A stretch of 64,000 nt of DNA from an uncultured Clostridia bacterium (GTDB lineage Bacteria > Bacillota > Clostridia > Oscillospirales > Ruminococcaceae), in contig CANQCK010000008.1 in assembly GCA_947589185.1 (NCBI GenBank), positions 1-64,000 on the forward strand, in the 5' to 3' direction. Position numbers and translations under genes: made by a program. Shown here piece by piece: positions 2,522 to 35,970 of the stretch. Each line of letters begins with the position of its first letter. Positions within the stretch are counted from its first letter, which is position 1. The notes beneath the pieces are model-generated. The model worked only from the letters and a program-made list of their open reading frames with translations, was not told the DNA's origin and did not search any database.

Positions 2522-3520
2522 ATGGCAAATTACAACGGTTCAAAATGTATTGTCTGCGGTAAGGAATTTGAAGAAAATGATGATATAGTGGTATGTCCCG
2601 ATTGCGGAACGCCTTATCACAGAGATTGCTATAATCAAGAAGGAAAGTGCATAAACACAGAGCTTCACGAGAAGGGCGTGTCTTGGAATCAGAAAAAAAG
2701 CGATGAGGAAGAGGCAAAAGAAGCAGAGTCTGAAAATAAAGTCTGCCCGAGATGTGGGCATTCAAACGCCGGTAATCAGAATTTCTGTTCACATTGCGGA
2801 CTTCCGTTAATTAATGGGTCTGATTATCAGCATTTTAATGACGGAGACGGGCAGAATCCGTATTCTGAGTTCGGACCGATGGGGCAAGGTTTCGGCGGTC
2901 AGGACGGACCGTTTCAGGGAGGACAGCCTTTCAATCCTTTTTCGGGCGGTTTTGTAACAATAGAGGACGATACTGATATTGACGGTATAAAGGCAAAGGA
3001 TATAGCTGATTATGTAGGAAGCAACAAGTTTTATTTTCTCGCACAGTTTATGAGATTTGCCAAGCTGAAAATAAAAAGGTCGTTTAACTTTTGTGCTTTT
3101 CTTTTTCCTGAGTACTACTATTTTTACAGAAAGATGCTGGGACACGGTTTTTTCTATATGACATTCAGAATCGTTATGACTGTTTTTATGCAAAGTATGC
3201 TTTTGAATTTCGGTATGACTTCTGAAATGACAACAGCTGATATTGCTGAAAAAATATCTGCGTCGCCGCTTTGGTCGGGAGTGTTTTTAGGACTTGGTTT
3301 ACTGTCTTTGATTCTTTATATAATCAGCGGAATGTTTTCAAACTTCTGGTATTTTCAAAAAGCGAAGCATGATATTGGAAATATAGATAAGATTGCTCAG
3401 TCGGATATACAGAGGCGTGATACTATTGCTAAAAGGGGAGGAACATCCTTTGGAATTGCAATAGCGGCAATAGCGGCATATTATTTAATTATCAGGGTAA
3501 TAGCAATGCTGATAGGCTAA
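2522..3520 (+). CDS. zinc-ribbon / RING-like membrane protein (DUF2628-like)
   Basis: A 332-residue protein of unknown function. The N-terminus has a C-x2-C ... C-x2-C ... H-x2-C arrangement (residues about 9-40), like the prokaryotic RING-finger family. A second zinc ribbon follows at about 75-95 (CPRCG ... CSHCG), then a Gly/Pro/Gln-rich linker. The C-terminal half (about 165-332) has three or four hydrophobic segments and an aromatic stretch (FLFPEYYYFYRKM) typical of DUF2628 proteins. The zinc domains probably face the cytoplasm. Its stop codon TAA is directly followed by a GC-rich repeat hairpin at 3521. The start is fixed by the family-like N-terminus; the SD spacing is unusual (see 2489). 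Confidence 0.8.
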   Translation: MANYNGSKCIVCGKEFEENDDIVVCPDCGTPYHRDCYNQEGKCINTELHEKGVSWNQKKSDEEEAKEAESENKVCPRCGHSNAGNQNFCSHCGLPLINGSDYQHFNDGDGQNPYSEFGPMGQGFGGQDGPFQGGQPFNPFSGGFVTIEDDTDIDGIKAKDIADYVGSNKFYFLAQFMRFAKLKIKRSFNFCAFLFPEYYYFYRKMLGHGFFYMTFRIVMTVFMQSMLLNFGMTSEMTTADIAEKISASPLWSGVFLGLGLLSLILYIISGMFSNFWYFQKAKHDIGNIDKIAQSDIQRRDTIAKRGGTSFGIAIAAIAAYYLIIRVIAMLIG

Positions 3521-3768
3521 CCGGCGAGCCGCCGGATGCCCTCTGCCTTTGAGAAGTTTGTACAATTTTTTTGATTTGTGCAACGGCAGGCTAGTATATA
3601 GATTAAAAAGGCAAAAAAGTAAGACTGGCGAGCCGCCGGATGCCCTCTGCCTTTGAGAAGTTTGTACAATTTTTTTGATTTGTACAACGGCAGGCTAGTA
3701 TATAGATTAAAAAGGCAAAAAAGTAAGACCGGCGAGCCGCCGGACGCTCTCTGCCTTTGAGAAATCAC
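3521..3768 (+). repeat. tandem GC-hairpin repeat array A (104-bp period, about 2.4 units)
   Basis: Three units start at 3521, 3625 and 3729. Each opens with a 15-nt hairpin, CCGGCG-AGC-CGCCGG (the second unit has one change). A second imperfect stem follows, CTGCCTTTG pairing with CAACGGCAG (3543-3551 with 3581-3589 in unit 1), then an A-rich tail. The third unit is cut off after the first arm of the second stem. The first unit abuts the stop codon of the preceding gene. Related arrays lie near 12045, 39703 and 58688. Confidence 0.8.
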
Positions 3769-3846
3769 TTTTTTCTAACTTAATGTTGATATATTATTTG
3801 CAGTTTTGCTAAAAAAAGCATAAGGTGATTTTTTGAAATTTCTAAT

Positions 3847-3881
3847 AGGAGGATGCTCGATAGGAGCATATGGTCATAAGT
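3847..3881 (+). promoter_or_regulatory. SD followed by hairpin before the galU start
   Basis: AGGAGG (3847-3852) is followed directly by ATGCTC (3853-3858), a 5-nt loop and GAGCAT (3864-3869), a perfect 6-bp stem. Twelve nt then lead to the ATG at 3882. The full SD-to-start distance is 29 nt; with the stem folded it is about 12. A mini-ORF starting at 3853 would end at 3879, 2 nt before the galU start, but its SD spacing is zero. Confidence 0.6.
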
Positions 3882-4763
3882 ATGAAAGTAAAAAAGGCTG
3901 TAATTCCTGCAGGCGGGTGGGGAACCCGTGATTTACCTGCGACAAAGGCTATGCCAAAAGAGCTTTTGCCGATTGTAGACAAGCCTGCCATTCAGTATAA
4001 TGTTGAAGAGGCTGTAAAAAGCGGTATAACAGATATATGTATTATTTTAAGTCCTGATAAAGACATAGTAAAAAAACACTTTTCAACTAATGAAAGGCTG
4101 GAAAGGCATCTAAAAAACGGCGGAAAAAAATACGAACAAAAGCTTGAGGAAGTTAAGAAAATATCACGAATGGCAAATATTACGTATGTCATACAGGAAA
4201 AGGCTATGGGCTTGGGACATGCAGTTTCTCTTGCAAAGGAATTTGTCGGCGGAGAATCGTTTGCCGTTTTGTACGGCGATGATGTTATAATTGGAGATAT
4301 TCCGTGCTGTAAACAGATTTGCGACGCATATGAAAAGTACGGTCTTGGTGCGGTTGCAATAAAAGAGGTTTCAGATGAATATATAGTTAAGTATTCTTCA
4401 ATGAAATGTGAAAATATAAAAGATAATGTTTATTCAATAACAGATATGAAGGAAAAACCCAGTCTTGATGATAAGTTTTCTAATTTCTCTATTTTAGGCA
4501 GATGTGTTCTGCCGTTTGAGATTTTTGACATACTTGAATCTATACCAAGAGGTCAGGGAGGAGAATACCAGCTTACCGACGCTATGGCTGTTTTAGCTCG
4601 TGAAAAGGGAATGATAGGTATCGACTTTCTGGGAAGAAGGTATGATATGGGCAGTAAAATCGGCATTTTGGAAGCTGCTCTTGAAATAGGACTTAAACAC
4701 CCTGAGGTCAAGGACGATTTGGAAAAGTTAGTAATTAAATTAGCACAAAAAATCAATAGTTGA
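3882..4763 (+). CDS. galU: UTP--glucose-1-phosphate uridylyltransferase
   Basis: Makes UDP-glucose from UTP and glucose-1-phosphate for cell-wall and surface polysaccharides. The 293-residue product carries the nucleotidyltransferase signature near its N-terminus (GGWGTRDLPATKA, then MPKELLPIVDKP), the YGDD metal-binding segment and the GGEYQLTDA sugar-site segment, all in family order. The GWGTRD variant replaces the more usual GLGTRF. The ATG at 3882 gives the usual family start MKVKKAVIPA; an in-frame ATG at 3870 overlaps the leader hairpin and is less likely. Its stop codon overlaps the -35 box of the rpsF promoter. Confidence 0.9.
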   Translation: MKVKKAVIPAGGWGTRDLPATKAMPKELLPIVDKPAIQYNVEEAVKSGITDICIILSPDKDIVKKHFSTNERLERHLKNGGKKYEQKLEEVKKISRMANITYVIQEKAMGLGHAVSLAKEFVGGESFAVLYGDDVIIGDIPCCKQICDAYEKYGLGAVAIKEVSDEYIVKYSSMKCENIKDNVYSITDMKEKPSLDDKFSNFSILGRCVLPFEIFDILESIPRGQGGEYQLTDAMAVLAREKGMIGIDFLGRRYDMGSKIGILEAALEIGLKHPEVKDDLEKLVIKLAQKINS

Positions 4764-4788
4764 CAATAAAATATTATTGTGTTATAAT
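4760..4788 (+). promoter_or_regulatory. rpsF-ssb-rpsR promoter
   Basis: TTGACA (4760-4765) overlaps the galU stop codon; a 17-nt spacer leads to TATAAT (4783-4788). The match to consensus is exact. Confidence 0.85.
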
Positions 4789-4803
4789 TTACAAGTTATC
4801 CTT

Positions 4804-4825
4804 GCTTGCGATTAAAAACGCAGGC
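4804..4825 (+). promoter_or_regulatory. leader hairpin of the rpsF operon
   Basis: GCTTGCG (4804-4810) pairs with CGCAGGC (4819-4825) over 7 bp with one G-U pair and an 8-nt A-rich loop, close to the expected transcription start. S6 operons are often autoregulated through a leader hairpin bound by S6:S18. I cannot confirm the known binding motif here. Confidence 0.4.
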
Positions 4826-4851
4826 GAAATCTAAAAGGAGGTGCAATAGTA

Positions 4852-5142
4852 ATGGCTAAGGTTACAGAAAAGTACGAGGCTATGGTAGTATTCAGCACTA
4901 AGCTCAGCGAAGAGGAAATTCAAAATCTTACGCTAAAGTTCGGTGACCTGATTTCAGCAAATGCCGAAGAGGTTTCAATTGATGAGTGGGGCAAGAGAAA
5001 GTTGGCTTATCCTATCAATTATGAAAACGAAGGCTATTATGTTCTTTGGAACTTTATTTCAAAGCCAAATTTTCCGGCAGAATTAGAGCGTGTACTTAAA
5101 ATTACTGACGGCGTTCTGAGATTTTTAGTAACAGTAAGCTAA
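4852..5142 (+). CDS. rpsF: 30S ribosomal protein S6
   Basis: A 96-residue small-subunit protein that sits on the platform of the 30S particle paired with S18. The YEAMVVFSTKLSEEE start and the DEWGKRKLAYPI segment are typical of S6. SD AGGAGG is 9 nt before the ATG. It is the first gene of rpsF-ssb-rpsR, a conserved bacterial operon, with its own consensus promoter. Confidence 0.95.
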   Translation: MAKVTEKYEAMVVFSTKLSEEEIQNLTLKFGDLISANAEEVSIDEWGKRKLAYPINYENEGYYVLWNFISKPNFPAELERVLKITDGVLRFLVTVS

Positions 5143-5165
5143 AATCAGAGAAAGGAAGATACGTT

Positions 5166-5639
5166 ATGTTGAACAGAGTAATTTTGATGGGAAGAATAAC
5201 CCAAGATCTAGAGCTTAAACAGACCCAAAGCGGTGTCAGCGTTTTGTCATTTAACATTGCCGTTGACAGAGGCTATGTAAAACAGGGCGAGGAAAGGCAG
5301 ACTGATTTTATCAGTTGTGTTGCGTGGCGTCAAAGAGCGGAGTTCATTAACAATTATTTTGCAAAGGGCAGAATGATTGCCGTTGAGGGAAGTCTTCAAA
5401 CGAGAACTTATGATGACAAAAACGGAGTTAAGCATTATGTTACCGAGGTAGTTGTAGATAACGTGTCATTCACCGGCGAGCCTAAACAGCAGAGCGGTAA
5501 TACTACAAGCTCTACGTTCAGCACACCGGAACAGACTCAGAACCATGTTGACAATAATGCTTCAATGAATGAGTCTATTGCTATCGGCGATATTGACGAT
5601 TTTGAGGTAGTTATTTCAGACGACGGAGTTCCGTTCTAA
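5166..5639 (+). CDS. ssb: single-stranded DNA-binding protein
   Basis: A 157-residue SSB that coats single-stranded DNA in replication and repair. Residues about 1-105 form the OB-fold (MLNRVILMGRITQDLEL, DFISCVAWRQRAEF, VEGSLQTRTY). A Gln/Asn/Thr-rich flexible linker follows, and the acidic tip DDGVPF at the C-terminus is the docking peptide for partner proteins. It lies 23 nt after rpsF, with SD AAAGGA. Confidence 0.95.
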   Translation: MLNRVILMGRITQDLELKQTQSGVSVLSFNIAVDRGYVKQGEERQTDFISCVAWRQRAEFINNYFAKGRMIAVEGSLQTRTYDDKNGVKHYVTEVVVDNVSFTGEPKQQSGNTTSSTFSTPEQTQNHVDNNASMNESIAIGDIDDFEVVISDDGVPF

Positions 5640-5693
5640 TCAAAGCAATTGATTATTGAAATGAATTAAATCAGGTTAAAGGAGGAAATTACC

Positions 5694-5930
5694 ATGGAGA
5701 GAACCGGCAAACCGGTTAAGAGAAGCCGAAAAAAGGTTTGTATGTTCTGTGTTGACAGAGCAGAAAAAATTGATTATAAAGATGTTGCCAAGTTGAGAAA
5801 GTGTATGACCGAGAGAGCAAAGATTCTTCCTCGCCGTGTTACGGGAACTTGTGCATATCACCAAAGAGAGCTTACTTCTGCTATTAAAAGAGCACGCCAT
5901 GTTGCGTTGCTGCCTTACACGGCTGAATAA
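5694..5930 (+). CDS. rpsR: 30S ribosomal protein S18
   Basis: A 78-residue basic protein that partners S6 in the 30S subunit. The core segments [22 protein letters not shown] and [25 protein letters not shown] match S18 closely. The N-terminus has CMFC, and with the cysteines at LRKC and GTC this gives four Cys, as in zinc-type S18. SD AGGAGG is 9 nt upstream. It is the last gene of the operon. Confidence 0.95.
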
Positions 5931-5950
5931 GCAATTATATTTTGATATTA

Positions 5951-5978
5951 AGCTCGGAGCATTGCTTCGGGCTTTTTA
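5951..5978 (+). terminator. terminator of rpsF-ssb-rpsR
   Basis: A 10-bp stem (5951-5960 with 5964-5973, two G-U pairs) with a 3-nt loop is followed by TTTT. Confidence 0.85.
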
Positions 5979-6090
5979 ATTAGTAATACAGTCATATGTA
6001 ACGCTTGATGTTAGAGATCAGATAAATCAGTAAATTGTAAAAATTTCAAATGCAGCAGAGCAATCAGCATCACGACGGTCTTTTAAAAGG

Positions 6091-6109
6091 ATATAGTTTT
6101 AAACTATAT
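6091..6109. promoter_or_regulatory. inverted repeat upstream of metE, possible LysR operator
   Basis: ATATAGTTT and AAACTATAT form a perfect 9+1+9 inverted repeat, which fits the T-N11-A pattern of LysR-type operators. It lies about 45 bp upstream of a -10 box TATAAT (6154-6159) whose -35 is poor, as expected of an activated promoter. The LysR gene at 8513 is the closest candidate regulator (inference). Confidence 0.4.
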
Positions 6110-6188
6110 ATAGTCATAAAAAATAAGTGTTACATTATGGCTGCAATAAATGATATAATAGAAAAAAAGTAAAGAAAGGTGTAATTAA

Positions 6189-8453
6189 ATGAAAACATCA
6201 GTTATCGGTTATCCGAGAATAGGCAAGGACAGAGAACTTAAATTTGCCTCAGAAAAATATTTCAGAGATGAGATCACTGAAGCGGAGCTTTTGGAAACTG
6301 CAAAGGCGTTGAGATTATCACATTGGGAGGTTCAGAATTTAAACGGAACAGACTATATTTCATCGAATGACTTCTCTTTTTATGATAATGTTCTTGACAC
6401 AGCAGTGCTTTTAAATGCAATTCCTAAGCGTTACAAACAGCTTGGGCTTTCAGAGCTTGATACATATTTTGCAATGGCAAAGGGCTATCAGGGCGAAAAG
6501 GGAGACGTTAAAGCACTTGCAATGAAAAAGTGGTTCAACACAAATTATCACTATATGGTGCCTGAAATAGAAGACGACATTGAAATCTCATTGAAAGGAA
6601 CAAAGCCGTTTGACGAGTATTGTGAAGCTGATAAGAACGGAATAAAAACAAAGCCGGACATAATCGGTGCTTTTACATTCTTGAAGCTTGCACGTTTCAC
6701 AGGAAATAAAACAGCGGAGGATATTGCAGACAGCATTGCAAAGGCTTATTGTGAAATACTGCAAAAGTTCAACGATTTGGGTACAGAGTGGGTGCAGTTT
6801 GACGAGCCATCGTTGGTAAGGGATTTAAACGATTCTGACAAGGCACTTTTTGTATCGCTTTATAAGAAAATATTATCTGAAAAGGGAAACGTTAAGGTCC
6901 TTCTTCAGACATATTTCGGCGATGTTCGTGATTGTTGTGATGAAATCAGCTCTCTTGATTTTGACGGTGTTGGTCTTGACTTTGTTGAGGGGAAAATGTC
7001 TCTTGAAATTGCTGATAAAATTGACGGCAATAAGATTCTGTTTGCAGGAGTTGTAAACGGAAAGAACATCTGGAAAAACAATTACAAGAAGACAATAGAC
7101 ATCATTAATAAGCTGAAAGGCCATTTCGGTGAAATCGTTCTCAATACGTCTTGCTCGCTTTTACACAGCCCGTATACGTTAAAAAGCGAAACAAAACTCA
7201 ATAAATCTTATACAAAGCACCTTGCATTTGCTGAGGAGAAGTTGGGTGAACTGAGCGAACTCAAAAAGATTTTTAACAGCGATGATCCTTTTGGAACCGC
7301 TGAGTATAAGACAAACGCAGAGTTATTCAGCGAAAGCAGAGATTGTGAAAACAAAGAGGTTCAGAAAAAGACTGCTGAATTAAGCGAAAAGGATTTTGTA
7401 AGGCTACCTGAATTTGCGGAGCGTGAGAAAATTCAGAAGTCAGTATTTGATCTTCCGCTTTTCCCGACGACTACGATCGGCTCGTTCCCGCAAACGGCTG
7501 AAGTCAGACAAAATCGTGCAAAATTTCGCAGAGGAGAAATTTCAGAAGGGGAATATGAGGCTTTTAATAAGCAGAAAATCAAGGAATGTGTTGAGCTTCA
7601 GGAGAAAATCGGACTTGACGTTCTTGTTCACGGAGAGTTTGAGCGTAACGATATGGTAGAATATTTCGGCGAGTGTTTAGACGGATTTATATTCACCACA
7701 AAGGCTTGGGTTCAGTCATACGGAACACGCTGTGTAAAGCCGCCGATTGTTTGGGGAGATGTTTCAAGAGCAAAGCCGATGACAGTAAAGTGGTCTGTAT
7801 ATGCACAGAGCCTTACAGAAAAAGCTATGAAGGGTATGCTTACCGGTCCTGTAACCATTCTCAACTGGTCGTTCCCGAGAGAGGATATTTCTCTTAATGA
7901 GTGTGCTTATCAGATTGCTTTAGCAATTCGTGAAGAGGTTCTTGACCTTGAGGCTAACGGAATCAAAATAATTCAGGTTGACGAAGCCGCTCTAAGAGAA
8001 AAGCTTCCGCTCAGAAAATCTGACTGGAAAGCAGATTACCTAGACTGGGCAATTCCTGCATTCAGACTTGTTCACAGCGGAGTTAAAGCTGAAACTCAGA
8101 TACACACCCATATGTGTTACAGCGAGTTTACCGACATCATTAAGGATATTGACAATATGGACGCAGACGTTATAACCTTTGAGGCATCACGTTCTGATCT
8201 TACCATTCTTGATTCTTTGAAGGAAAACAACTTCAGAACACAGGTAGGTCCCGGAGTTTACGATATTCATTCACCTAGAATCCCGTCGGTTGAAGAGATT
8301 GTTTCTGCTGTTAAAAAGATGCTTAAAAAGATACCGAAAGAAAAGCTTTGGATCAACCCTGACTGCGGTCTGAAAACAAGAGGTAATGAGGAAACTGTTC
8401 CCAGCCTTGAAAACTTAGTAAAGGCTGCAAAGTTATCAAGAAAGAATGCCTAA
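6189..8453 (+). CDS. metE: cobalamin-independent methionine synthase
   Basis: Transfers the methyl group of 5-methyltetrahydropteroyl-polyglutamate to homocysteine, making methionine without vitamin B12. At 754 residues it is full length, with the two TIM-barrel halves typical of MetE. The zinc ligands are present: His641 and Cys643 in IHTHMCYSEF and Cys726 in NPDCGLKTRG. The catalytic-region segments VDEAALREKLPLR and GMLTGPVTILNWS are intact. SD AAAGGTG is 7 nt before the ATG. The 250-bp leader shows no S-box or cobalamin riboswitch that I recognise, but holds an inverted repeat (6091). It converges with a LysR gene. Confidence 0.96.
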   Translation: MKTSVIGYPRIGKDRELKFASEKYFRDEITEAELLETAKALRLSHWEVQNLNGTDYISSNDFSFYDNVLDTAVLLNAIPKRYKQLGLSELDTYFAMAKGYQGEKGDVKALAMKKWFNTNYHYMVPEIEDDIEISLKGTKPFDEYCEADKNGIKTKPDIIGAFTFLKLARFTGNKTAEDIADSIAKAYCEILQKFNDLGTEWVQFDEPSLVRDLNDSDKALFVSLYKKILSEKGNVKVLLQTYFGDVRDCCDEISSLDFDGVGLDFVEGKMSLEIADKIDGNKILFAGVVNGKNIWKNNYKKTIDIINKLKGHFGEIVLNTSCSLLHSPYTLKSETKLNKSYTKHLAFAEEKLGELSELKKIFNSDDPFGTAEYKTNAELFSESRDCENKEVQKKTAELSEKDFVRLPEFAEREKIQKSVFDLPLFPTTTIGSFPQTAEVRQNRAKFRRGEISEGEYEAFNKQKIKECVELQEKIGLDVLVHGEFERNDMVEYFGECLDGFIFTTKAWVQSYGTRCVKPPIVWGDVSRAKPMTVKWSVYAQSLTEKAMKGMLTGPVTILNWSFPREDISLNECAYQIALAIREEVLDLEANGIKIIQVDEAALREKLPLRKSDWKADYLDWAIPAFRLVHSGVKAETQIHTHMCYSEFTDIIKDIDNMDADVITFEASRSDLTILDSLKENNFRTQVGPGVYDIHSPRIPSVEEIVSAVKKMLKKIPKEKLWINPDCGLKTRGNEETVPSLENLVKAAKLSRKNA

Positions 8454-12213: not shown

Positions 12214-13785
12214 TTACCGTTGCTCTTGTACTTTCATCAGCTTATATTCAATACTGTCGACCAGAGCCTTAACAGATGCGTTTATAATATCTGTTGACGC
12301 TCCTACTGTAGTCCAAACATTCTGACCGTCGGTTGATTCTATTAAAACTCTTACAGCCGCCGCTGTTGCAGACGCTGTATCTACGACTCTAACTTTGTAG
12401 TCTATGAGGTTTATATGCGATAGAACGTCAGGATAGTATTCTGCGAGTGCATTTCTGATCGCCTTATCAAGAGCATTTACAGGACCGTTTCCCTCGTCTG
12501 CAGCCATTTTGCATTTATCTGACACCTTTACCTTTACCATAGCACAGGCAGGTGATTTCCTATCGCCCTCAGGCTCTGTAATTACCTTGAAAAACTCTAT
12601 GTGGAAAAACGGTTTGAGCAGACCTAAAAATCTTTTTACCAAAAGCTCAAATGAAGCGTCAGCGGCTTCGTATTGAAAGCCTTTCTGTTCCTGAAGTTTA
12701 AGCATTTCAAGAACGTCTGCCAGAACAGGCGACCCCTTTTCAATATCGGGAAGAAAAGCCTTGATTTTTGAGAGTATCGCAGTTCTGCCTGAAACTTCGC
12801 TTAGCAGAAACTGACGTTCGTTTCCGACTTCAGAGGGGTCTATATGTTCAAATGATCTTGACAGCTTTGAAACTCCGTCGATGTGCATTCCGCCTTTGTG
12901 AGCAAAAGCCGATTTTCCGACATATGATAATCCGTCAGGAAGTGTAATGTTAGAAAGCTCTGCTATGTATCGTGCATACGAGGTCAGCTTTTTAATAGAA
13001 GCTTCAGGTATAACCTCATAGCCTAGTTTTAACTGTAGATTAGGAATAACTGTTGAAAGACAGGTATTTCCGCATCGCTCGCCAATACCTATAAAAGTTC
13101 CCTGAACGCTTGTTGCTCCGCCGATAACGGCAGAGACGGTATTTGCAACAGCACAACCTGAATCGTTATGGCAGTGAATTCCGACTTCGCAGGAAATAAT
13201 TTTGCAAACTTCTTTAACTATATTTTCAATCTCGTGAGGAAAGCAACCTCCGTTTGTATCGCAAAGTGCGATAGATTTTGCACCTGCTTTTTCGGCAGTT
13301 TTAAGAGTTTCAATTGCATACTTAGGATTGTTTTTATACCCGTCAAAGAAATGTTCAGCGTCAAAGAAAACATATTTTCCCTTGTCGGTGAGATATTTTA
13401 CAGTGTCATAAATCATATTGAGGTTTTCTTCAAGCGTTGTGTTTAAAATCTTTGTTGCGTGAAGATCCCAGCTTTTCCCGAAAATTGCAACATAATCGCA
13501 TGGCACTTCTGCCATTACGTTTACTGATTTGTCCTCTTTAATATTAGTGTTTGCCCGTCTTGTAGAGCCGAAAGCAACGATTTTTGAATGTGAAAGCTCT
13601 AAGCTCTTGCTTGCTTCAAAGAACTCTTTGTCTTTTGGATTAGAAAAAGGGTTTCCCGCTTCAATGAAATCTATGCCGATTTCGTCAAGTGCCTTTGTAA
13701 TTGCAATTTTATCCTGAACCGAGAAGTTCATATTTTCACCCTGAGCACCGTCCCGCAAGGTGGAATCATACATTGAAATTCTCAT
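12214..13785 (-). CDS. cimA: (R)-citramalate synthase
   Basis: Condenses acetyl-CoA with pyruvate to (R)-citramalate, the first step of threonine-independent isoleucine synthesis. The 523-residue protein has an HMGL-like TIM barrel (about residues 1-270) with YDSTLRDGAQ, the EAGNP substrate segment and the HCHNDSG metal-binding motif. The linker and C-terminal LeuA-type regulatory dimerisation domain (about 380-515) are also present. The DGAQGENMNFS start and overall length fit CimA better than 2-isopropylmalate synthase. It lies 30 bp after ilvB and shares its T-box leader. SD GGAG is 7 nt before the ATG. Confidence 0.9.
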   Translation of the reverse strand: MRISMYDSTLRDGAQGENMNFSVQDKIAITKALDEIGIDFIEAGNPFSNPKDKEFFEASKSLELSHSKIVAFGSTRRANTNIKEDKSVNVMAEVPCDYVAIFGKSWDLHATKILNTTLEENLNMIYDTVKYLTDKGKYVFFDAEHFFDGYKNNPKYAIETLKTAEKAGAKSIALCDTNGGCFPHEIENIVKEVCKIISCEVGIHCHNDSGCAVANTVSAVIGGATSVQGTFIGIGERCGNTCLSTVIPNLQLKLGYEVIPEASIKKLTSYARYIAELSNITLPDGLSYVGKSAFAHKGGMHIDGVSKLSRSFEHIDPSEVGNERQFLLSEVSGRTAILSKIKAFLPDIEKGSPVLADVLEMLKLQEQKGFQYEAADASFELLVKRFLGLLKPFFHIEFFKVITEPEGDRKSPACAMVKVKVSDKCKMAADEGNGPVNALDKAIRNALAEYYPDVLSHINLIDYKVRVVDTASATAAAVRVLIESTDGQNVWTTVGASTDIINASVKALVDSIEYKLMKVQEQR

Positions 13786-13815: not shown

Positions 13816-15504
13816 TCAATCATCTATTTCAATTTCCATGATCTGATCGTTGATGTCAGCCCCTGCAGGAACCATCGGAAGAACGTTTATGTCCTTGTTG
13901 ATTCTGCAATCTATAAGACAAGGCTTACCTGATTTAATTGCTTTTTCAAGAACGACTTTAATATCAGATTTTTTTTCTATAACATAACCGTTTATACCGA
14001 AAGCGTTGGCGAGCGTCATATAATCGGTATTTCTGTTAATATCGGTTTCAGAAAAATGCTTTTTATAGAAAAGTCTTTGCCATTGACGAACCATTCCAAG
14101 CACATTGTTGTTGAATACGAGTTCTATCACAGGTATATTGTGTTTTTTCAAAGTTGACAGTTCGTTTAAGTTCATAAAGAAACTGCCGTCGCCTGCAATA
14201 TTTATAACAGGTCTGTCAGGGTTGCCGATTTTTGAGCCTATTGACGCACCGAGTCCGTAACCCATTGTTCCGAGTCCGCCGCTTGAGGCAAATTGTCTGG
14301 CAGTTTTGAAGTTATAGAACTGTGCAGCCCACATCTGATGCTGACCTACTTCGGTAGTTATAATTGCTTTTCCGTTTGTTAATTCATCGAGGGTAGTTAT
14401 AACATCGCTGGGAAGAACCTCAGTGTCATTTTTAAAAGGCTTCATATGAAGCGGATAATCCTTTTTCCATTCTGAAATTTGATCGATCCAGGAACGGTGG
14501 TCTTGTTTTGGAATTAGACTGTCGAGCTTATTTATTATGTATTTAACATCGCCGTTTACAGATAAATAAGCGTTGACATTCTTTCCTATCTCTGCCGGGT
14601 CAATATCTATGTGAATAATCTTTTTTCCTTTAGCAAATGTATTCGCGTTGCACAAAACTCTGTCTGAAAATCTTGAGCCGAAAACAATAAACAAATCGCA
14701 GTTTTGAAGTGCCAGTGCACTTGTTTTTGTTCCGTGCATACCTAGCATACCCGTGTAAAGTTTGTTAGTGTTATCAAATGCACACTGTCCCATAAGAGAA
14801 AGAGAAACAGGAGCGTTGATTTTTTCTACAAGCGTTTCAAAATCGTCCTTAGCGTCAGCTGAGACAACTCCGCCGCCGGCATAAACGAAAGGCTTTTTGC
14901 TTTTTTTGATAAGTTCAGCAACCTTTTCACACTGTTCATTTATGTTATCAGGGTTGTGAAAAACAGGCTTGACAGGAGTTTTCTTTTTGTATTCGCAAAC
15001 AGCAGCTGTTATATCTTTTGGAATATCAATAAGTACAGGACCCTTTCTGCCTTCGTTTGCAATATAAAATGCTTCTCTTATGGTATCGGCGAGTTTGTTT
15101 ATATCCTTTACTATGTAGTTATGCTTTGTTATAGGCATAGTTATTCCGCATATGTCGACTTCCTGAAACGAGTCAAGTCCGAGCAGGGAAGTGCCGACAT
15201 TACCCGTTATCGCAACAAGTGGTATTGAATCCATATGTGCTGTTGCAATTCCTGTTACAAGATTAGTTGCACCGGGACCTGATGTGGCTATCACCACACC
15301 TGTTTTGCCTGTTGTTCTTGAATATCCGTCAGCGGCGTGACAAGCACCCTGCTCATGAGCAGTGATAATGTGCCTGATTTTTTTCTTGTACTTATAAAGA
15401 GCGTCATAAATGTTTAAAACAGCACCGCCCGGATACCCGAATACAGTGTCTACTCCTTGCTCTAAAAGACATTCAATAATAATGTCAGAACCGTTTAATT
15501 TCAT
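13816..15504 (-). CDS. ilvB: acetolactate synthase large (catalytic) subunit
   Basis: TPP-dependent condensation of pyruvate with pyruvate or 2-ketobutyrate, the shared step of valine, leucine and isoleucine synthesis. The 562-residue protein has the catalytic Glu segment (TAHEQGACHAADGYSR), the FAD/middle domain, and the TPP motif GDGSFFMNLNELSTL followed by NNN. I choose the ATG at 15504 (MKLNGSDIIIECL, with GGGG 6 nt upstream) over the in-frame ATG at 15516. No small subunit ilvN is adjacent; cimA follows instead. Expression is governed by the T-box at 15556. Confidence 0.92.
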   Translation of the reverse strand: MKLNGSDIIIECLLEQGVDTVFGYPGGAVLNIYDALYKYKKKIRHIITAHEQGACHAADGYSRTTGKTGVVIATSGPGATNLVTGIATAHMDSIPLVAITGNVGTSLLGLDSFQEVDICGITMPITKHNYIVKDINKLADTIREAFYIANEGRKGPVLIDIPKDITAAVCEYKKKTPVKPVFHNPDNINEQCEKVAELIKKSKKPFVYAGGGVVSADAKDDFETLVEKINAPVSLSLMGQCAFDNTNKLYTGMLGMHGTKTSALALQNCDLFIVFGSRFSDRVLCNANTFAKGKKIIHIDIDPAEIGKNVNAYLSVNGDVKYIINKLDSLIPKQDHRSWIDQISEWKKDYPLHMKPFKNDTEVLPSDVITTLDELTNGKAIITTEVGQHQMWAAQFYNFKTARQFASSGGLGTMGYGLGASIGSKIGNPDRPVINIAGDGSFFMNLNELSTLKKHNIPVIELVFNNNVLGMVRQWQRLFYKKHFSETDINRNTDYMTLANAFGINGYVIEKKSDIKVVLEKAIKSGKPCLIDCRINKDINVLPMVPAGADINDQIMEIEIDD

Positions 15505-15555
15505 ATTGATCCCCATTCCTGCGTAACATTTACGCTTGTTTTTAATTATTTAGCA

Positions 15556-15828
15556 ATAAAAAACGCCTCACTCGTAAAGCTAAACTTTAAGAGACGAAGC
15601 GAAAATCGTTCGTGATACCACTCTTATTCGGCAATGGTTTTATTTATATCCATAACCCTCACAAGCATCTGACAATGCTTTACTCGATAACGGGAGTTCC
15701 CGAACTAGCCTACTGAAAATTTCAGCCGTCAGCTCAGAGGTGATAAAATATTGGTTAAGTCTTACTGACTCACATCTGCCGTCAGCTTTCTGAAAAGGCT
15801 AAAACCTATTCGTCCTCGTCATAGCTTT
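15556..15828 (-). promoter_or_regulatory. T-box riboswitch, isoleucine specifier likely
   Basis: The T-box core AGTGGTATCACG (complement of 15611-15622) is followed by a terminator stem and a T6 run (complement of about 15558-15600). Upstream, the segment ATC-ACCTCTGAGCTG (complement of about 15730-15744) aligns with the known specifier context, giving ATC (Ile) as the probable specifier at 15742-15744. The conserved AGTAGG and CCCGTTAT segments are present. Uncharged tRNA(Ile) would favour the antiterminator and switch on ilvB-cimA, which fits the pathway. Confidence 0.88.
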
Positions 15829-15841
15829 TACACTAATTCAC

Positions 15842-15929: not shown

Positions 15930-15941
15930 GTATCTTATTAT

Positions 15942-16282
15942 GCGACCAAGCCGATAAGCCGAGTTTTGTCGTGTACGGTAATCTATCTAGGTCTTATGTC
16001 GCCATAAGACTCAAGCCTCCTATAAGCCAAAGCCTGACGAGCAGCCATTGACTTTGTACTTACCATTGGAGTTGCATCGAATAGGGTTTACATGGCAATG
16101 CGGTCTCCCGCATTCCGGTGAGCTCTTACCTCGCCATTCCAACCTTACCTCGCAAAGGCGGTATATTTCTGTTGCACTAGCCCTAAGGTCGCCCTCGGCT
16201 GCCGTTAGCAGCTATCCTGCTCTGTGATGCTCGGACTTTCCTCTGAACGTAACGCCGTCCAGCTACCGCATAGCTTACTCGC
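15942..16282 (-). ncRNA. rnpB: RNase P RNA
   Basis: The catalytic RNA that trims the 5' leader of tRNA precursors. The minus strand shows the conserved GAGGAAAGTCCGAGC segment near the 5' end and the GACAAAACTCGGCTTA segment near the 3' end. P1 can form between 16273-16282 and 15942-15951 (GCGA and AAGC arms around a 2-nt mismatch). The estimated length is 341 nt. A consensus promoter lies 7 nt upstream and a terminator follows. Confidence 0.92.
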
Positions 16283-30169: not shown

Positions 30170-33055
30170 TTATGGCAGTAATCTGTTCAAATCTCTCGGG
30201 AACATCGATGTTTCACGAATGTTTGAGTAGTTTAACAGCTTCATTAAAAGCCGCTCAAGACCAATTCCCAAACCGCCGTGAGGGGGAAGTCCATATTTGT
30301 GAGATTCCAGATAATTTTCGAAGTCGGCAGGATCAAGTCCCTGACGTTTCATTTTTGCTACCTGCTCGTCATAATCGTGAATTCTCTGACCGCCCGATGT
30401 GATCTCAAGACCTCTGAATATAAGGTCAAACTTATATGCGGCTTTAGGATCATCTCTGTCGTCCATTGCATAGAACGGAGGCTTAGAGCTGGGAAAGTGA
30501 GTTATAAAGATAAAATCGCTGTCATACTTTTCCTTAGCGTATTTACAAAGATTTACCTCGTCCTCAGGGTCTAAATCGAATTTTGTCGAAACATTTTTGC
30601 CCCGCAGAAGCTCTATTGCATCGGAAAATTTAATTGATGGAATATCTTTGATATGAGGTACGTCAGCACCGAGCAGTTTTATCTCTTTGGAGTAATTTTT
30701 CTCGATATATTCAAAAATATGTTTAAGCATAGCTGTTTCCATATTCATAACATCATACATACTGTCTATATATCCCATCTCGAAATCAAGACCGATATAC
30801 TCGTTTATATGACGTGAAGTTGCGTGCTTTTCCGCTCTGTAAACAGGAGCTATTTCATAAACTCTGTCATAGAAAGCAATAGCGGCTTGCTTATAAAACT
30901 GGGGAGACTGATTCAAAAATGCAGGATGACCGAAATAATCTATCTTGAAGATGTTTGCTCCGCCTTCTGCACCCTGAGCAACGATTTTCGGCGTGTGAAT
31001 TTCAGTGAAGTCATTCATTCTCATAAACTCGTGCATTCCCTGAACAAGACCTTCCTGGAGTTTGAAAATAGCACGCTGATATGGGTTTCTCAAAGAAACG
31101 CTTCTGTTATCGAGATTGACATCAAGGGTGCATTTAAGTTCGCCCTGAGAAATCTTGAGGGGATATTCCTCTTTAGGTTTAGAAATAAGCTTTATTTCAC
31201 TTAGAATGATCTCAATACCGTTTTGGTCACGCTTATTTTCATTGACAGTGCCCTTAATATGAACATAATAACCCTCGTGCAGACCGTCTATACTGTCCTT
31301 GCAGTTATCTTTATTATATACTGTCTGAATTACGTCTCTTGCAGTTCGGATAACAACAAAAGATATGCTTCCCATTGATTTGACTTTATGAACACAGCCT
31401 GAGAATTCAACTTCTGAACCAATATTACTTTGAGCAGTCTCAACATTGAATTCTTTCATCACGTCTTTACCGCTAATAACAAGCAGCTTGTCGTTATTAG
31501 ACTCTGTATTCGGAATGAATTTATTTTTGTTTTCATATTTTGACAGTTTTGAGTTGTCAATTTTTAAATTGTTTTCAGTCTTTGCATTAATTTGTTCTAC
31601 TTGCTTTTTTTCTTCTTTATCAGATTTAAGCTTGCTTTCGAGAATTTCTTTTATAACCTTAGGTGTGCCGACGCCTTTAAGTGCTTTTGTACATTTGCCC
31701 ATAAAGAAGCCGAACACCTTTGTTTCGCCGTTTCTGTACTGTTCTACCTGCTCCGGGTTAGCCTTTAAAATCTCGTCGATTCCTGCTTCTACCTTTGAGT
31801 TGTCAAGTTCAATCAGATAGCCGTTTGCCTTTATGATCTCGGCACATGGCTTTCCTGTTTCGACCATCTCCCTGAACGTCTTATTAGCGTCGTTTAAAGA
31901 AATCTTTTCTTCGTCTGAGAGCTTAACCAGTTCTGCAAGATCCTCAGATGTGAAGTTCAGATTATCCAAATCAATTTCACCGAGATTTAGTCTTCTCATA
32001 AATTCACGCAGAATAAATGAAGCTATGCTCTTTGGATTGTTATATGCCTTTACTGCGTTGTCAAAGAAATCTGAAACGACCTTAGACTGAATCAATATTT
32101 TAGCGTCTGTTTCGCTCAAACCGAATTTCTCAACATACCGCTTGATTCTTTTATTGGGCATTTCAGGCAGTTTTGCTTTGATTTCGTCAAGCATTTCGTC
32201 AGTGAAGTTTACTTGTAAAATATCAGGCTCAGGGAAGTATCTGTAATCGTGAGCGTTTTCCTTATTTCTCATTGAGGTCGTAACGTCACGGTTTTCGTTG
32301 TATCTCCTTGTTTCCTGAATAACACGCTTTCCTGCGTCAAGCAAGAGTGCCTGACGTCTTTCTTCGTATTTTATCGCTCTGCCGATTGATTTTATTGAGT
32401 TTAAGTTTTTGATCTCCGCACGAGTGCCGAATTCCTTATCATCAGGTCTCATAAGAGAAATATTTACGTCGCACCTTAAAGAACCCTGCTCCATTTTACA
32501 GTCGCTGACTCCTGCATACTTAAGCAAAAGTGCAATTTGAGATACAAACGCCTGAGCCTCCTCGGCTGACGAAATATCAGGCTCGGTAACTATCTCGATA
32601 AGAGGTATTCCGCATCTGTTATAGTCGGCGAGAGAAACGCCGTTAAAATCGTCGTGTATAAGCTTTCCTGCGTCCTCCTCAAGATGTATACGGTTAATTC
32701 TGATATTCTTCTTTTTTCCATCAACCTCAATAGGAACAAGACCGTCTAAGCATAGAGGTCTTTGAAGCTGTGAGATTTGATATGCTTTAGGCAGGTCGGG
32801 GTAGAAGTAGTTCTTTCTGTCGAACACAGAAAACTTGCTTATGTTGCAGCCCAACGCAAAGCCTGCTTTTACTGCGTATTCAACGGCAGTCTGATTGATA
32901 ACGGGAAGTGTTCCCGGCATACCTGTGCATACAGGACAGCACCTGGTGTTTTGGTCGCCTCCGAACTCAGCGTTGCAGGTGCAGAAAACCTTTGATTTTG
33001 TAAGCAGCTCGGAGTGAATTTCAAGACCGATGACTGTTATATATTTATTTTCCAT
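30170..33055 (-). CDS. gatB/aspS: fusion: Asp/Glu-tRNA amidotransferase subunit B + archaeal-type aspartyl-tRNA synthetase
   Basis: A single 961-residue frame joins two complete enzymes. Residues 1 to about 477 are GatB, with the start YITVIGLEIHSELLT, a CxC...CCxxC zinc site at Cys25/27/39/40/43, and the YqeY-like tail ending near KVIKEILESKLKS. A Lys/Asn/Glu-rich linker spans about 478-523. Residues about 524-961 form a full archaeal-type AspRS: an OB-fold anticodon-binding domain (545-625), motif 1 near 672-690, QSPQFYKQ at 716-723, motif 2 around Arg740-Glu742 (VYRAEKHATSRH) and motif 3 at 927-936 (GGLGIGLERL). In free-standing form such AspRS enzymes are often non-discriminating and make Asp-tRNA(Asn), the substrate of GatCAB. 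The fusion would place the two steps on one chain. It follows gatA by 19 bp, with SD GGAGG. Confidence 0.93.
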   Translation of the reverse strand: MENKYITVIGLEIHSELLTKSKVFCTCNAEFGGDQNTRCCPVCTGMPGTLPVINQTAVEYAVKAGFALGCNISKFSVFDRKNYFYPDLPKAYQISQLQRPLCLDGLVPIEVDGKKKNIRINRIHLEEDAGKLIHDDFNGVSLADYNRCGIPLIEIVTEPDISSAEEAQAFVSQIALLLKYAGVSDCKMEQGSLRCDVNISLMRPDDKEFGTRAEIKNLNSIKSIGRAIKYEERRQALLLDAGKRVIQETRRYNENRDVTTSMRNKENAHDYRYFPEPDILQVNFTDEMLDEIKAKLPEMPNKRIKRYVEKFGLSETDAKILIQSKVVSDFFDNAVKAYNNPKSIASFILREFMRRLNLGEIDLDNLNFTSEDLAELVKLSDEEKISLNDANKTFREMVETGKPCAEIIKANGYLIELDNSKVEAGIDEILKANPEQVEQYRNGETKVFGFFMGKCTKALKGVGTPKVIKEILESKLKSDKEEKKQVEQINAKTENNLKIDNSKLSKYENKNKFIPNTESNNDKLLVISGKDVMKEFNVETAQSNIGSEVEFSGCVHKVKSMGSISFVVIRTARDVIQTVYNKDNCKDSIDGLHEGYYVHIKGTVNENKRDQNGIEIILSEIKLISKPKEEYPLKISQGELKCTLDVNLDNRSVSLRNPYQRAIFKLQEGLVQGMHEFMRMNDFTEIHTPKIVAQGAEGGANIFKIDYFGHPAFLNQSPQFYKQAAIAFYDRVYEIAPVYRAEKHATSRHINEYIGLDFEMGYIDSMYDVMNMETAMLKHIFEYIEKNYSKEIKLLGADVPHIKDIPSIKFSDAIELLRGKNVSTKFDLDPEDEVNLCKYAKEKYDSDFIFITHFPSSKPPFYAMDDRDDPKAAYKFDLIFRGLEITSGGQRIHDYDEQVAKMKRQGLDPADFENYLESHKYGLPPHGGLGIGLERLLMKLLNYSNIRETSMFPRDLNRLLP

Positions 33056-33074: not shown

Positions 33075-34532
33075 TTAATCTATGTTTGGTAAAACTCTTG
33101 TAAAGTTCTTTTCATAGGCGTCCGCTGTCTGAATTACCGTCTGCTCGTCAAAAGGCTTTCCGATAACCGACATTCCGATAGGAAGTCCCTTACCGTCATA
33201 TCCGCACGGGGTCGAGATTGCAGGAAGACCTGCAATATTAACTGTTACTGTGCAAATATCAGCCTGATACATCTTGACTGGGTCGGATATATTTTCATCA
33301 CAGCGGTATGCAGTTGTTGGCGTTGTAGGTGTTAAAATAACATCGCACTTTTCAAATATATCGTTGTATTCTTTTCTTATTAGCTGTCTTAAAGCCATTG
33401 CTTTTCCGTAGTAAGCGTCGTAGTAACCGCTGGAAAGAGCGTAGTTGCCTAAGAGTATTCTTCTTTTAACCTCGTCGCCGAAGCCCTCACGTCTTGACGC
33501 TTTGATAAGCTCATCGTATGACTCGCACTTCTTATCAGTTCTGTGACCGTACTTTATACCGTCATATCTTGAAAGGTTTGAAGCCGCCTCAGCAGATGCA
33601 ATAAGATAGTATGCAGGAATTGCATATTTAAGAGACGGCATAGAACATTCAACAAGCTCCGCACCCATAGCTTTGTATTCGTCAGCGGCTTTTAAGACTG
33701 CATTTTTTATAACATCGTCTATTCCCTCAGCAAAAAACTCTTTAGGCAGGGCAATTTTCAACCCTTTTATATCCCTGCCAATTTTTGCGTTGAAGTCGGG
33801 TACATCTACTTTAGCAGATGTTCCGTCGTGAATATCAAAGCCGCAAATAGCATTTAGTATAGTTCCGCAGTCCTGAGCGTTTTTAGCGACAGGACCTATC
33901 TGGTCGAGAGACGATGCGAACGCCACCAAACCGTATCTTGAAACACGGCTGTAGGTCGGTTTCATACCCGTTACTCCGCAGAAGGAGGATGGCTGACGTA
34001 TTGAGCCTCCTGTATCTGAGCCGAGAGCCGCTGTGCAAAGGTCTGATGAAACTGCACTTGCCGAGCCGCCCGATGAACCGCCCGGTACTCTGTTAGTATC
34101 ATACGGGTTCTTGGTTTTCTTGAATGCCGCTGTTTGTGTTGAACCGCCCATTGCAAACTCGTCCATAGAAACCTTTCCGAGCATTACTATGCCCTCGTTC
34201 TCCAGCTTATCCATAACTGTTGCGTTGTAAGGCGGAATGAAATTTTCAAGCATTCTTGACGCACAGGTGGTTTTTACACCCTCTGTGCAGATGTTGTCTT
34301 TAATAGCCATTGGTATTCCCGTCAACGGTGAAGCTTCGCCCTTATTGATTTTCTCCTGTGCTTTATCGCAAGCCTTATATGCCTGCTCTTTTGAAAGGGT
34401 TATAAAGCAGTCCAGCTTTTTGTCTGCTGATTCAATACGGCTGTAGTATTCGTCGGTAAGCTCTTTTACGGAAATTTCCTTTCCGTCCAGAGCTTTTCTT
34501 ATATCATTAATACTGCTGTTTTTCAGTTCCAT
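33075..34532 (-). CDS. gatA: Asp-tRNA(Asn)/Glu-tRNA(Gln) amidotransferase subunit A
   Basis: The amidase subunit that frees ammonia from glutamine (or asparagine) for transfer to mischarged tRNA. The 485-residue protein has the amidase-signature catalytic triad region: Lys in PMAIKDNI, and the Ser pair in PGGSSGGSASAVSS and GSDTGGSIRQPSSF. It lies between gatC (45-bp gap) and gatB/aspS (19-bp gap), in the order gatC-gatA-gatB. SD AAGGAG precedes the ATG. Confidence 0.96.
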   Translation of the reverse strand: MELKNSSINDIRKALDGKEISVKELTDEYYSRIESADKKLDCFITLSKEQAYKACDKAQEKINKGEASPLTGIPMAIKDNICTEGVKTTCASRMLENFIPPYNATVMDKLENEGIVMLGKVSMDEFAMGGSTQTAAFKKTKNPYDTNRVPGGSSGGSASAVSSDLCTAALGSDTGGSIRQPSSFCGVTGMKPTYSRVSRYGLVAFASSLDQIGPVAKNAQDCGTILNAICGFDIHDGTSAKVDVPDFNAKIGRDIKGLKIALPKEFFAEGIDDVIKNAVLKAADEYKAMGAELVECSMPSLKYAIPAYYLIASAEAASNLSRYDGIKYGHRTDKKCESYDELIKASRREGFGDEVKRRILLGNYALSSGYYDAYYGKAMALRQLIRKEYNDIFEKCDVILTPTTPTTAYRCDENISDPVKMYQADICTVTVNIAGLPAISTPCGYDGKGLPIGMSVIGKPFDEQTVIQTADAYEKNFTRVLPNID

Positions 34533-34577
34533 TGATTATTCTCCTTATTAATTCGGAATTTATTAATGTGCGTTTTG

Positions 34578-34856
34578 TTATTCCACTACCTTTGGAACAA
34601 CAAAGCAGTTATCTCTGTTTTTAGCATTGGCAATTACCTTTTCGGTAGGCATTGAAGGTTCATTGAAATCCTCTCTTAGGTCGTTTAAATATATATTCTT
34701 ATTATCGGCAAGAGCGTCATAGGTGACGTCGATTTCCTTTACCTTATCCATAAGCTCAATAATGCTTGTCATATCACTTGACGCCTTTTTAAGCTCATCG
34801 TCGGTAAAATCAAGTTTACCAAGCTCTGCTAAGTATTTTACCATTTCTAAATCCAT
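34578..34856 (-). CDS. gatC: Asp-tRNA(Asn)/Glu-tRNA(Gln) amidotransferase subunit C
   Basis: A 92-residue stabilising subunit that wraps around GatA and GatB. The typical features are VKYLAELGKLDFTDDEL near the N-terminus and the LREDFNEPSMPTEKVIANA region near the C-terminus. It is the first gene of the operon, with its own promoter upstream and SD AAAGGAC. Confidence 0.93.
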   Translation of the reverse strand: MDLEMVKYLAELGKLDFTDDELKKASSDMTSIIELMDKVKEIDVTYDALADNKNIYLNDLREDFNEPSMPTEKVIANAKNRDNCFVVPKVVE

Positions 34857-34935
34857 AACGATTTGTCCTTTCTGAAATATTTAGGTATAATTAGTTTTCC
34901 TTATTTTGGACGTAATAATCCAATACTTAGATTTT

Positions 34936-34964
34936 ATTATACACTATTTTGTAAGCAAACGCAA
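34936..34964 (-). promoter_or_regulatory. gatC-gatA-gatB/aspS promoter
   Basis: On the minus strand TTGCGT (34959-34964), a 17-nt spacer and TATAAT (34936-34941). Transcription would begin near 34930. It diverges from the promoter at 34998. Confidence 0.7.
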
Positions 34965-34997
34965 GAGTTTTAAACGTAATTGATATTTTAGTAACTC

Positions 34998-35026
34998 TTG
35001 ACATATAAAAGTATTTGTGGTATATT
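34998..35026 (+). promoter_or_regulatory. promoter of the unknown gene at 35131
   Basis: TTGACA (34998-35003), a 17-nt spacer and TATATT (35021-35026). The leader from about 35032 holds two copies of a GGGGAG...CCCATA motif (35039-35054 and 35100-35115), each followed by an A-rich stretch. Confidence 0.8.
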
Positions 35027-35130
35027 GAAATCGGCAAAGGGGAGAAAACCCATAACAAAAAAACAAGCCGAAAATTAAATATCTTGCTTTACTGCAAAAG
35101 GGGGAGTTACCCATAGAAAAAAACATTATT

Positions 35131-35970
35131 GTGGTAGACAAAGACGAAAACGAAATCGGAAAGACCTATCCCAAAAGGGCGAAAGGTCTTGTCAAAAAAG
35201 GTCGGGCAGAGTATGCAGACGACCGTAAAATTCGTCTTTTAGAGCTTACTCATGTTCCGGCCGTAAATATTGAAACGGAGGATATAAAAATGAGTAATAT
35301 TATAAACTTTAATGCAGGAGATTTTTCTTTTAATAAGAAGTGCGGAAGCAATCAGGGTTACAAGGGCTTTATAACAAACAGTTTCGGTGAGGGTATCGAA
35401 ATGTTTGAAATAGGCGATTGGAACTGGAATTGGACGTCGATTATCTCAAAGCAGCAGCTTGAAAAGAATACCGACTATGTATTCAGGTTCGGCGTTACGA
35501 TGGGGCATAATGACGATCAGGACGAGGTATTGAGGTTTTATATCCGTTTTGACGGCGATGAAGAAAACCAGACTATATATGTCCTTGAGCGTGGCAGGTA
35601 TAAGCCTGTGATTTCTAAAAAACTCGGTGAAACTATGCTCAGAATATATGAGATAGAGTTTAACACGGGCGACGCTGAAAATGTGGAATTTGAGTTTGGT
35701 GCAATGAGAGCTGTAACCCAGATTATTCCTGTTAAGGAGTGTTCCGCATACGGAGAGCTTGAAGATCTAAGCTATGATGATTGGTGGCAAACCAGAAAAA
35801 ATGAAATTTTTAAAGTTGGCGGCAATGTAATCAATCTTCAAGATGCTAATTTGTCATTAAAGATTTTACGAAAGTTAAAAAAGGTTTTACCTAAAACGGG
35901 AGACTATGTATTAAATCTTCAAGGTGCAAATATTTTTGATGATAAAGATGATAAAGATGATAATGAATAA
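35131..35970 (+). CDS. hypothetical protein, unusual start region
   Basis: 279 residues from the first canonical start, GTG at 35131, which has no SD. Homology-like continuity (IEKNIIVVDKDENEIG, then TYPKRAKGLVKKGRAEY) and an SD GGGGAG 6 nt before an in-frame ATA at 35113 suggest initiation at AUA. A third possibility is the ATG at 35290 with a good GGAGG SD. The N-terminal 50 residues form a basic TYPKRAKGLVK-type module that I believe recurs in Ruminococcus proteins. The remainder is acidic and aromatic, beta-rich in look, with no signal peptide, and ends in a D/K-rich repeat tail. The function is unknown. Confidence 0.6.
   Translation: MVDKDENEIGKTYPKRAKGLVKKGRAEYADDRKIRLLELTHVPAVNIETEDIKMSNIINFNAGDFSFNKKCGSNQGYKGFITNSFGEGIEMFEIGDWNWNWTSIISKQQLEKNTDYVFRFGVTMGHNDDQDEVLRFYIRFDGDEENQTIYVLERGRYKPVISKKLGETMLRIYEIEFNTGDAENVEFEFGAMRAVTQIIPVKECSAYGELEDLSYDDWWQTRKNEIFKVGGNVINLQDANLSLKILRKLKKVLPKTGDYVLNLQGANIFDDKDDKDDNE

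Follow-up and report, generated by a model that had tools for sequence, protein, structure and literature searches.

The closest described system is the asparagine transamidosome of Thermus thermophilus, made up of AspRS2, GatCAB and tRNA(Asn) (PDB entry 3kfu). The locus described here has the same kind of AspRS, also with GatCAB; however, AspRS and GatB lie on separate chains in 3kfu, whereas they form a single chain in the window (the whole 64,000-nucleotide stretch that was analysed). Thermus has an AsnRS, according to passages of PMC4206432, whereas none over the cut-off was found in the genome of the window (G000). In the same paper, Clostridium acetobutylicum is credited with three AspRS, an additional GatCAB and tRNA-dependent Asn synthesis, and the extra AspRS and GatCAB are its likeness to G000; unlike G000, it is grouped there with AsnRS-bearing species (PMC4206432). 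T-box control in C. acetobutylicum is indicated by the title of a cited paper, whereas no T-box was found at the window operon.

Covalent union of a synthetase and an amidotransferase subunit has precedents. Proteins of the AspRS-GatC family NF009460 join the two kinds of enzyme as the window protein does, but the subunit is GatC, and the 723-position profile suggests that the AspRS is bacterial-type; with a cut-off of 1379 for this profile, the window protein reaches 82.5 bits. In the Thermotoga maritima glutamine transamidosome (3al0), chain C is named GatC, Linker, Glutamate--tRNA ligase 2 and is likewise linker-joined; by its name this is an engineered construct of GluRS and GatC, whereas the window encodes a natural GatB-AspRS fusion. 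Another natural case is the indirect route to Cys, in which parts of two-step charging are fused (SepCysSN, and a SepRS bearing an editing domain), according to passages of PMC8762117; the amino acid and the enzymes are different, however, and what is fused on is a small domain or peptide, unlike in the window. Because NF009460 and 3al0 precede it, the idea of joining both steps is itself not new. A search of the open-access literature found no report of a GatB-AspRS fusion, and within the reach of these searches a natural fusion of whole GatB with AspRS is new.

The fusion gene occupies positions 30170..33055 on the minus strand of the window and runs from ATG to stop, without interruption, over 961 codons. 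The preliminary description of this DNA had proposed a single 961-codon frame of GatB and AspRS, naming no strand, at the end of an operon of gatC, gatA and gatB/aspS; both the frame and the operon are borne out, with the fusion gene as the last member. Upstream on the same strand lie gatA (33075..34532; 485 amino acids; TIGR00132, 615 bits) and gatC (34578..34856; 92 amino acids; TIGR00135, 52.5 bits, cut-off 47.1), with intergenic gaps of 19 and 45 bases. The GatB half (residues 1–477; 31625..33055, minus strand) contains the Pfam domains GatB_N (7–289) and GatB_Yqey (329–476); NF004012 matches residues 3–478 with 621 bits (cut-off 338) and TIGR00133 scores 535.9 bits. The archaeal-type AspRS half (residues 524–961; 30173..31486, minus strand) contains an OB-fold (550–624) and tRNA-synt_2 (645–955), and is matched by the AspRS profile NF003483 over residues 538–961 (541.5 bits, cut-off 353) and by TIGR00458, the profile of archaeal-type non-discriminating AspRS, over residues 545–961 (397.1 bits, cut-off 368.4). 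The cut-offs for the GatB and AspRS profiles are the curated ones of NCBI. The AsnRS profile TIGR00457 reaches 245.6 bits on the fusion protein, under its cut-off of 342.6, and the closest solved relative of the AspRS half is 1n9w/3kfu (349 bits). Across 18 of 18 aligned fusions, the window's included, Cys25, Cys27, Cys40 and Cys43 of the GatB half, which we take to be zinc-site cysteines, are invariant, as are Arg740 and Glu742 of motif 2 and Arg935 of motif 3. The amidase Lys and Ser stretches of gatA were seen by eye (K78, GGSSGGS, S177), K78 and S177 presumably being the Lys and Ser of the amidase by role. The AspRS half has 438 residues, and none of the five Pfam matches of the fusion is a GAD domain; absence of this insertion domain is a criterion for archaeal-type non-discriminating AspRS, according to passages of PMC4206432.

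No T-box was found near gatC in the window or in a permissive scan of 34500-35400, and 11 related loci (eight fused, three unfused, some with little sequence before gatC) gave no hit at gathering score. Elsewhere in the window, a T-box leader (15587-15831, minus strand, 101.4 bits) immediately precedes an acetolactate-synthase-like gene (13816-15516), beyond which is a citramalate/isopropylmalate-synthase-like gene (12214-13785), both named by eye; a class A RNase P RNA is at 15939-16281 (minus strand, 254 bits). The related locus L060 carries a NiCo riboswitch at 95-191 (81.3 bits).

We read the fusion as a covalent asparagine transamidosome, that is, a fused two-step enzyme, with a probability of about 0.85. 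The archaeal-type AspRS half would charge tRNA(Asn) with Asp, and the GatB half, together with GatA and GatC from the same operon, would convert this Asp to Asn in place on the tRNA. The chain would stay uncut, and the tether would raise the local concentration of the partners, such that Asp-tRNA(Asn) would be corrected before release, and would fix the ratio at one AspRS per GatB. AspRS dimerises in known relatives, which would yoke two GatCAB to each other. We lean towards such channelling as the benefit of the fusion. The preliminary interpretation, that the joined enzymes keep mischarged Asp-tRNA(Asn) from escaping and fix their ratio, is upheld in part, namely for a real covalent GatB-AspRS, for the lack of a recognisable AsnRS or GlnRS and for a tRNA(Asn) gene with U1-A72; retention of the mischarged tRNA and a fixed ratio would be putative effects of the tether.

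A contig scan kept 79 loci, 48 of which had both GatB and AspRS matches: 22 fused in frame and 26 unfused, the latter including L094, whose AspRS is bacterial-type. The 22 fused loci, all additional to the window, come from several metagenome projects and are 69–96% identical to the window in the best matching segment. Unfused relatives exist, as would be expected if a missed stop or frameshift had merged two genes during sequencing or assembly, but this reading is effectively refuted by the 22 other loci, which share the fusion with linkers of similar length; the frame is open through 31487-31624, the interval named by the preliminary description for a possible stop or frameshift, and the linkers are coding-constrained. 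How often gatB frames exceed 900 codons, a question raised by that description, has a divided answer, since such frames are rare in the order but occur in 19 of 73 genomes of the family. In the order sample (245 genomes), NF003483 exceeds its cut-off in 44 genomes and a frame of more than 900 amino acids is found only in G000; in the phylum sample (398 genomes, 93 over the cut-off), G000 is again the only fused genome. The family set covers 73 of 120 relatives, with fusion mostly read from frame length; 19 of the 73 (G000 included) have frames of 952–1002 amino acids, and one more frame is cut at a contig end. Within the genus, 13 of 15 genomes (again counting G000) have frames of 957–1002 amino acids, G688 has 664 amino acids at a contig end and G694 a fragment only; outside the genus, frames of 952–969 amino acids occur in 6 of 58. 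A 979-amino-acid frame around an AspRS in G349 (350.8 bits, below cut-off) was considered as a second fusion in the phylum and rejected as chance read-through in GC-rich DNA, the first part of it being overlapped by another ORF in a different frame.

The AspRS halves of all 23 fusions fall into a single clade (SH-aLRT 100). In the GatB tree, where the operon-linked lineage is separate from standalone GatB, 20 of 21 fused rows group together and the exception, L048, pairs with the unfused L056; a single clade of all fused rows is not rejected (p-AU 0.31). In close unfused relatives, gatB and aspS adjoin with gaps of 19 to 704 bases (25 loci), and in the unfused L058 and L088 a small ORF, membrane-like by eye, separates them. 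On these comparisons, the simplest and most likely history is a single event in one family, in which gatB and aspS, already neighbours, were merged. L094 was considered as a fusion of GatB with a bacterial-type AspRS and rejected, the genes being adjacent but separate: gatC-gatA-gatB is followed there (3289-8139) by a bacterial-type AspRS gene of its own, a parallel pairing of gatB with the other AspRS type. The genome of L094 (G293) contains a pair of AspRS-like frames, of 591 and 589 amino acids, together with a GlnRS over cut-off and no AsnRS over cut-off.

A merger of neighbours also admits the reading that the protein is real and on the same pathway but that the join is idle, with genes merged by drift and a passive linker. 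This reading competes only with a benefit of the tether. It is favoured by the side-by-side position of gatB and aspS in unfused relatives, but in the 22 other loci the fusion is still intact, even where best-segment identity falls to about 69%. The distribution of AsnRS and the linker itself, discussed below, bear on it further.

PF00152 matches four proteins of G000, a genome of 1.9 Mb with 99.9% completeness: a bacterial-type AspRS of 591 amino acids, LysRS, the fusion and, weakly, a 488-amino-acid frame beside the AspRS gene that is presumably HisRS. The searches that the preliminary description had proposed thus return no recognisable AsnRS in this genome, a second AspRS, and two Asn_synthase proteins of AsnB size (651- and 618-amino-acid frames). 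With the bacterial-type AspRS and a second complete gatCAB, G000 has an AspRS and a GatCAB besides those of the fusion, and because two Asn_synthase proteins are encoded, the fusion is not the sole possible source of free Asn; a role as the sole asparagine source is thereby ruled out. Of 51 genomes, 50 have a PF00733 (Asn_synthase) match over its cut-off; G256 is without any match and those of G266 are weak. AsnA was found in 0 of 51. Free Asn can probably be made but not loaded directly onto tRNA, and the best reading is that the fusion route is the only path of the cell to Asn-tRNA(Asn).

Of the 20 fused family genomes, 17 reach at least 90% completeness with contamination of no more than 5%. 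AsnRS over cut-off is found in none of the 20 versus 39 of 52 others of the family, G694 being left uncounted, and in none of 23 fused versus 15 of 28 unfused genomes of an overlapping second set. In G744, an AsnRS-like gene is split in two pieces, each under the cut-off. The fused genomes are one clade, so the absence of AsnRS among them counts as about one event. AsnRS is also under cut-off in 13 of 52 non-fused family genomes and in 13 of the 28 unfused genomes, eight of which have neighbouring gatB and archaeal-type aspS; loss of AsnRS therefore does not require the fusion. Some of the AsnRS-negative unfused genomes may be incomplete MAGs, and the indirect route without AsnRS probably predates the fusion in part of the group. 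That unfused systems manage without AsnRS in those 13 of 28 genomes favours an idle join. Against it, AsnRS is kept in four of the five family genomes whose archaeal-type AspRS (more than 500 bits) is unfused, compared with none of the 20 fused ones.

The linker (residues 478–523; 31487..31624, minus strand) comprises 46 amino acids rich in K, E, S, T and D; across the 23 fusions its length is 41–48 amino acids, without a stop in any. Among eight close sequences, synonymous change in the linker (0.43) is near that of the flanks (0.37 and 0.48), and pN/pS is 0.311 (28 pairs), versus 0.038 in the GatB half and 0.027 in the AspRS half; the linker is therefore translated and loosely constrained. 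Its first part is variable (pN/pS 0.42), as a passive linker would be. Residues 504–515 (31511..31546, minus strand) are a conserved motif, with Leu504, Pro515 and an aromatic residue at 513 in 23 of 23 rows and Tyr507 and Asn509 in 22 of 23. The search pattern L[TSA].[YN].[NP]...[YF].P matches all fused linkers, and elsewhere only three times by chance (L050 on the other strand, L188 and L198). Unfused AspRS proteins (8 genes examined) start near fusion residue 525, so the motif arrived together with the fusion. Conservation of a motif that is not found in unfused relatives speaks against an idle join, which, with the evidence on AsnRS and on adjacency taken together, is a serious possibility, on balance less likely than not.

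A further possibility is that the chain is cut, or that AspRS is also started internally, such that mostly separate proteins result. The variability of the first linker part and its low pLDDT would suit this, as would the GTG and ATG at codons 532–533 of the window fusion, near the former AspRS start; however, frame and coding constraint cross the linker, and the conserved motif precedes the old start and is needless for either route, which makes separate proteins quite unlikely. An internal ATG with a Shine-Dalgarno sequence is found in 3 of 22 fusions and not in the window, a search with power near nil (only 3 of 25 unfused aspS starts were detected). The AlphaFold prediction, from an 18-sequence alignment, is poor (mean pLDDT 60.6), and its average of 75 for residues 501–510, versus 30–37 for residues 481–500, is a hint at most.

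G000 has two GatB, the second in a complete gatCAB cluster adjoining ligA, with gatB behind gatC-gatA. Of 23 fused genomes none has GlnRS over cut-off, against one of 28 others. In six of the 23 (G246, G256, G257, G259, G261 and G266), no GatB besides the fused one was found. In addition, G264 has two GatB pieces, perhaps of one gene, and in G263 standalone GatB alone is seen, since the contig with the fusion begins inside the fused gene. In the GatB and AspRS trees, G257, G261 and G266 are close kin, as is G264 in the AspRS tree, and G259 is near; this kinship makes loss of the second gatB in this group likelier than missing data. With no GlnRS and the fused GatB only, the fused enzyme would also have to serve Gln-tRNA(Gln). 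It may thus be that the fused GatCAB serves Gln equally with Asn and that AspRS is tethered chiefly to stabilise GatCAB, and GatCAB of Thermus is stabilised by AspRS2 according to passages of PMC4206432. This view is favoured by the six single-GatB genomes, but some of these six may be incomplete, and G000 itself retains the second gatCAB by ligA; we consider it rather unlikely.

In G000, 38 tRNA matches were obtained, 30 of them as loci, and ARAGORN was applied to 22, so that further copies are possible. Among the genes read by ARAGORN, U1-A72 is the first pair in the single tRNA(Asn) gene and in all three tRNA(Gln) genes, whereas two tRNA(Asp) genes and one tRNA(Glu) gene have G1-C72. GatCAB requires U1-A72 on its tRNAs, according to passages of PMC9976931. 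His556 of the fusion is present in 23 of 23 fusions and in 27 of 27 operon-linked unfused rows; the same residue stands in this column in 1n9w and 1wyd, and Trp in 1b8a. We take a His at this position, which corresponds to Trp26 of the discriminating Pyrococcus kodakaraensis AspRS, to be a mark of the non-discriminating enzyme. Recognition of tRNA(Asn) by archaeal non-discriminating AspRS presumably also needs Pro at the position of P. kodakaraensis Lys85, which is 611 in the fusion. The window fusion has Gln611, and Pro occurs here in 4 of 23 fusions and Lys in none of 23; this determinant is not conserved, so the AspRS half is filed as an archaeal-type AspRS and not as a proven standard non-discriminating one.

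The free bacterial-type AspRS of G000 has Leu where 4wj3 has His; Leu is likewise present in 1efw and 1eqr, which we take to be Asp-specific, and Lys in 6wom, the best match of the free AspRS. The enzyme in 4wj3 is the dual-specific P. aeruginosa AspRS, according to passages of PMC8762117. This sequence comparison weakly suggests that the free AspRS may handle tRNA(Asp) only. Channelling, the tRNA specificity of the fused half and the role of the linker motif are all inferences. An extended version of the transamidosome reading is tentative and, in our estimate, unlikely: the AspRS half, freed by the bacterial-type AspRS, would have ceased to be non-discriminating and be specialised for tRNA(Asn), the motif would dock, the acceptor end of tRNA(Asn) would pass between the two active sites unreleased, and the fusion would be a one-chain stand-in for AsnRS.

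How mischarged Asp-tRNA(Asn) is kept from proteins, by handover in a complex or otherwise, is an open question that this locus addresses. A natural fusion in bacteria without recognisable AsnRS makes it testable, and the unfused operons of relatives provide a control already present in nature. For structural work, the fused chain may be more amenable than complexes that dissociate.
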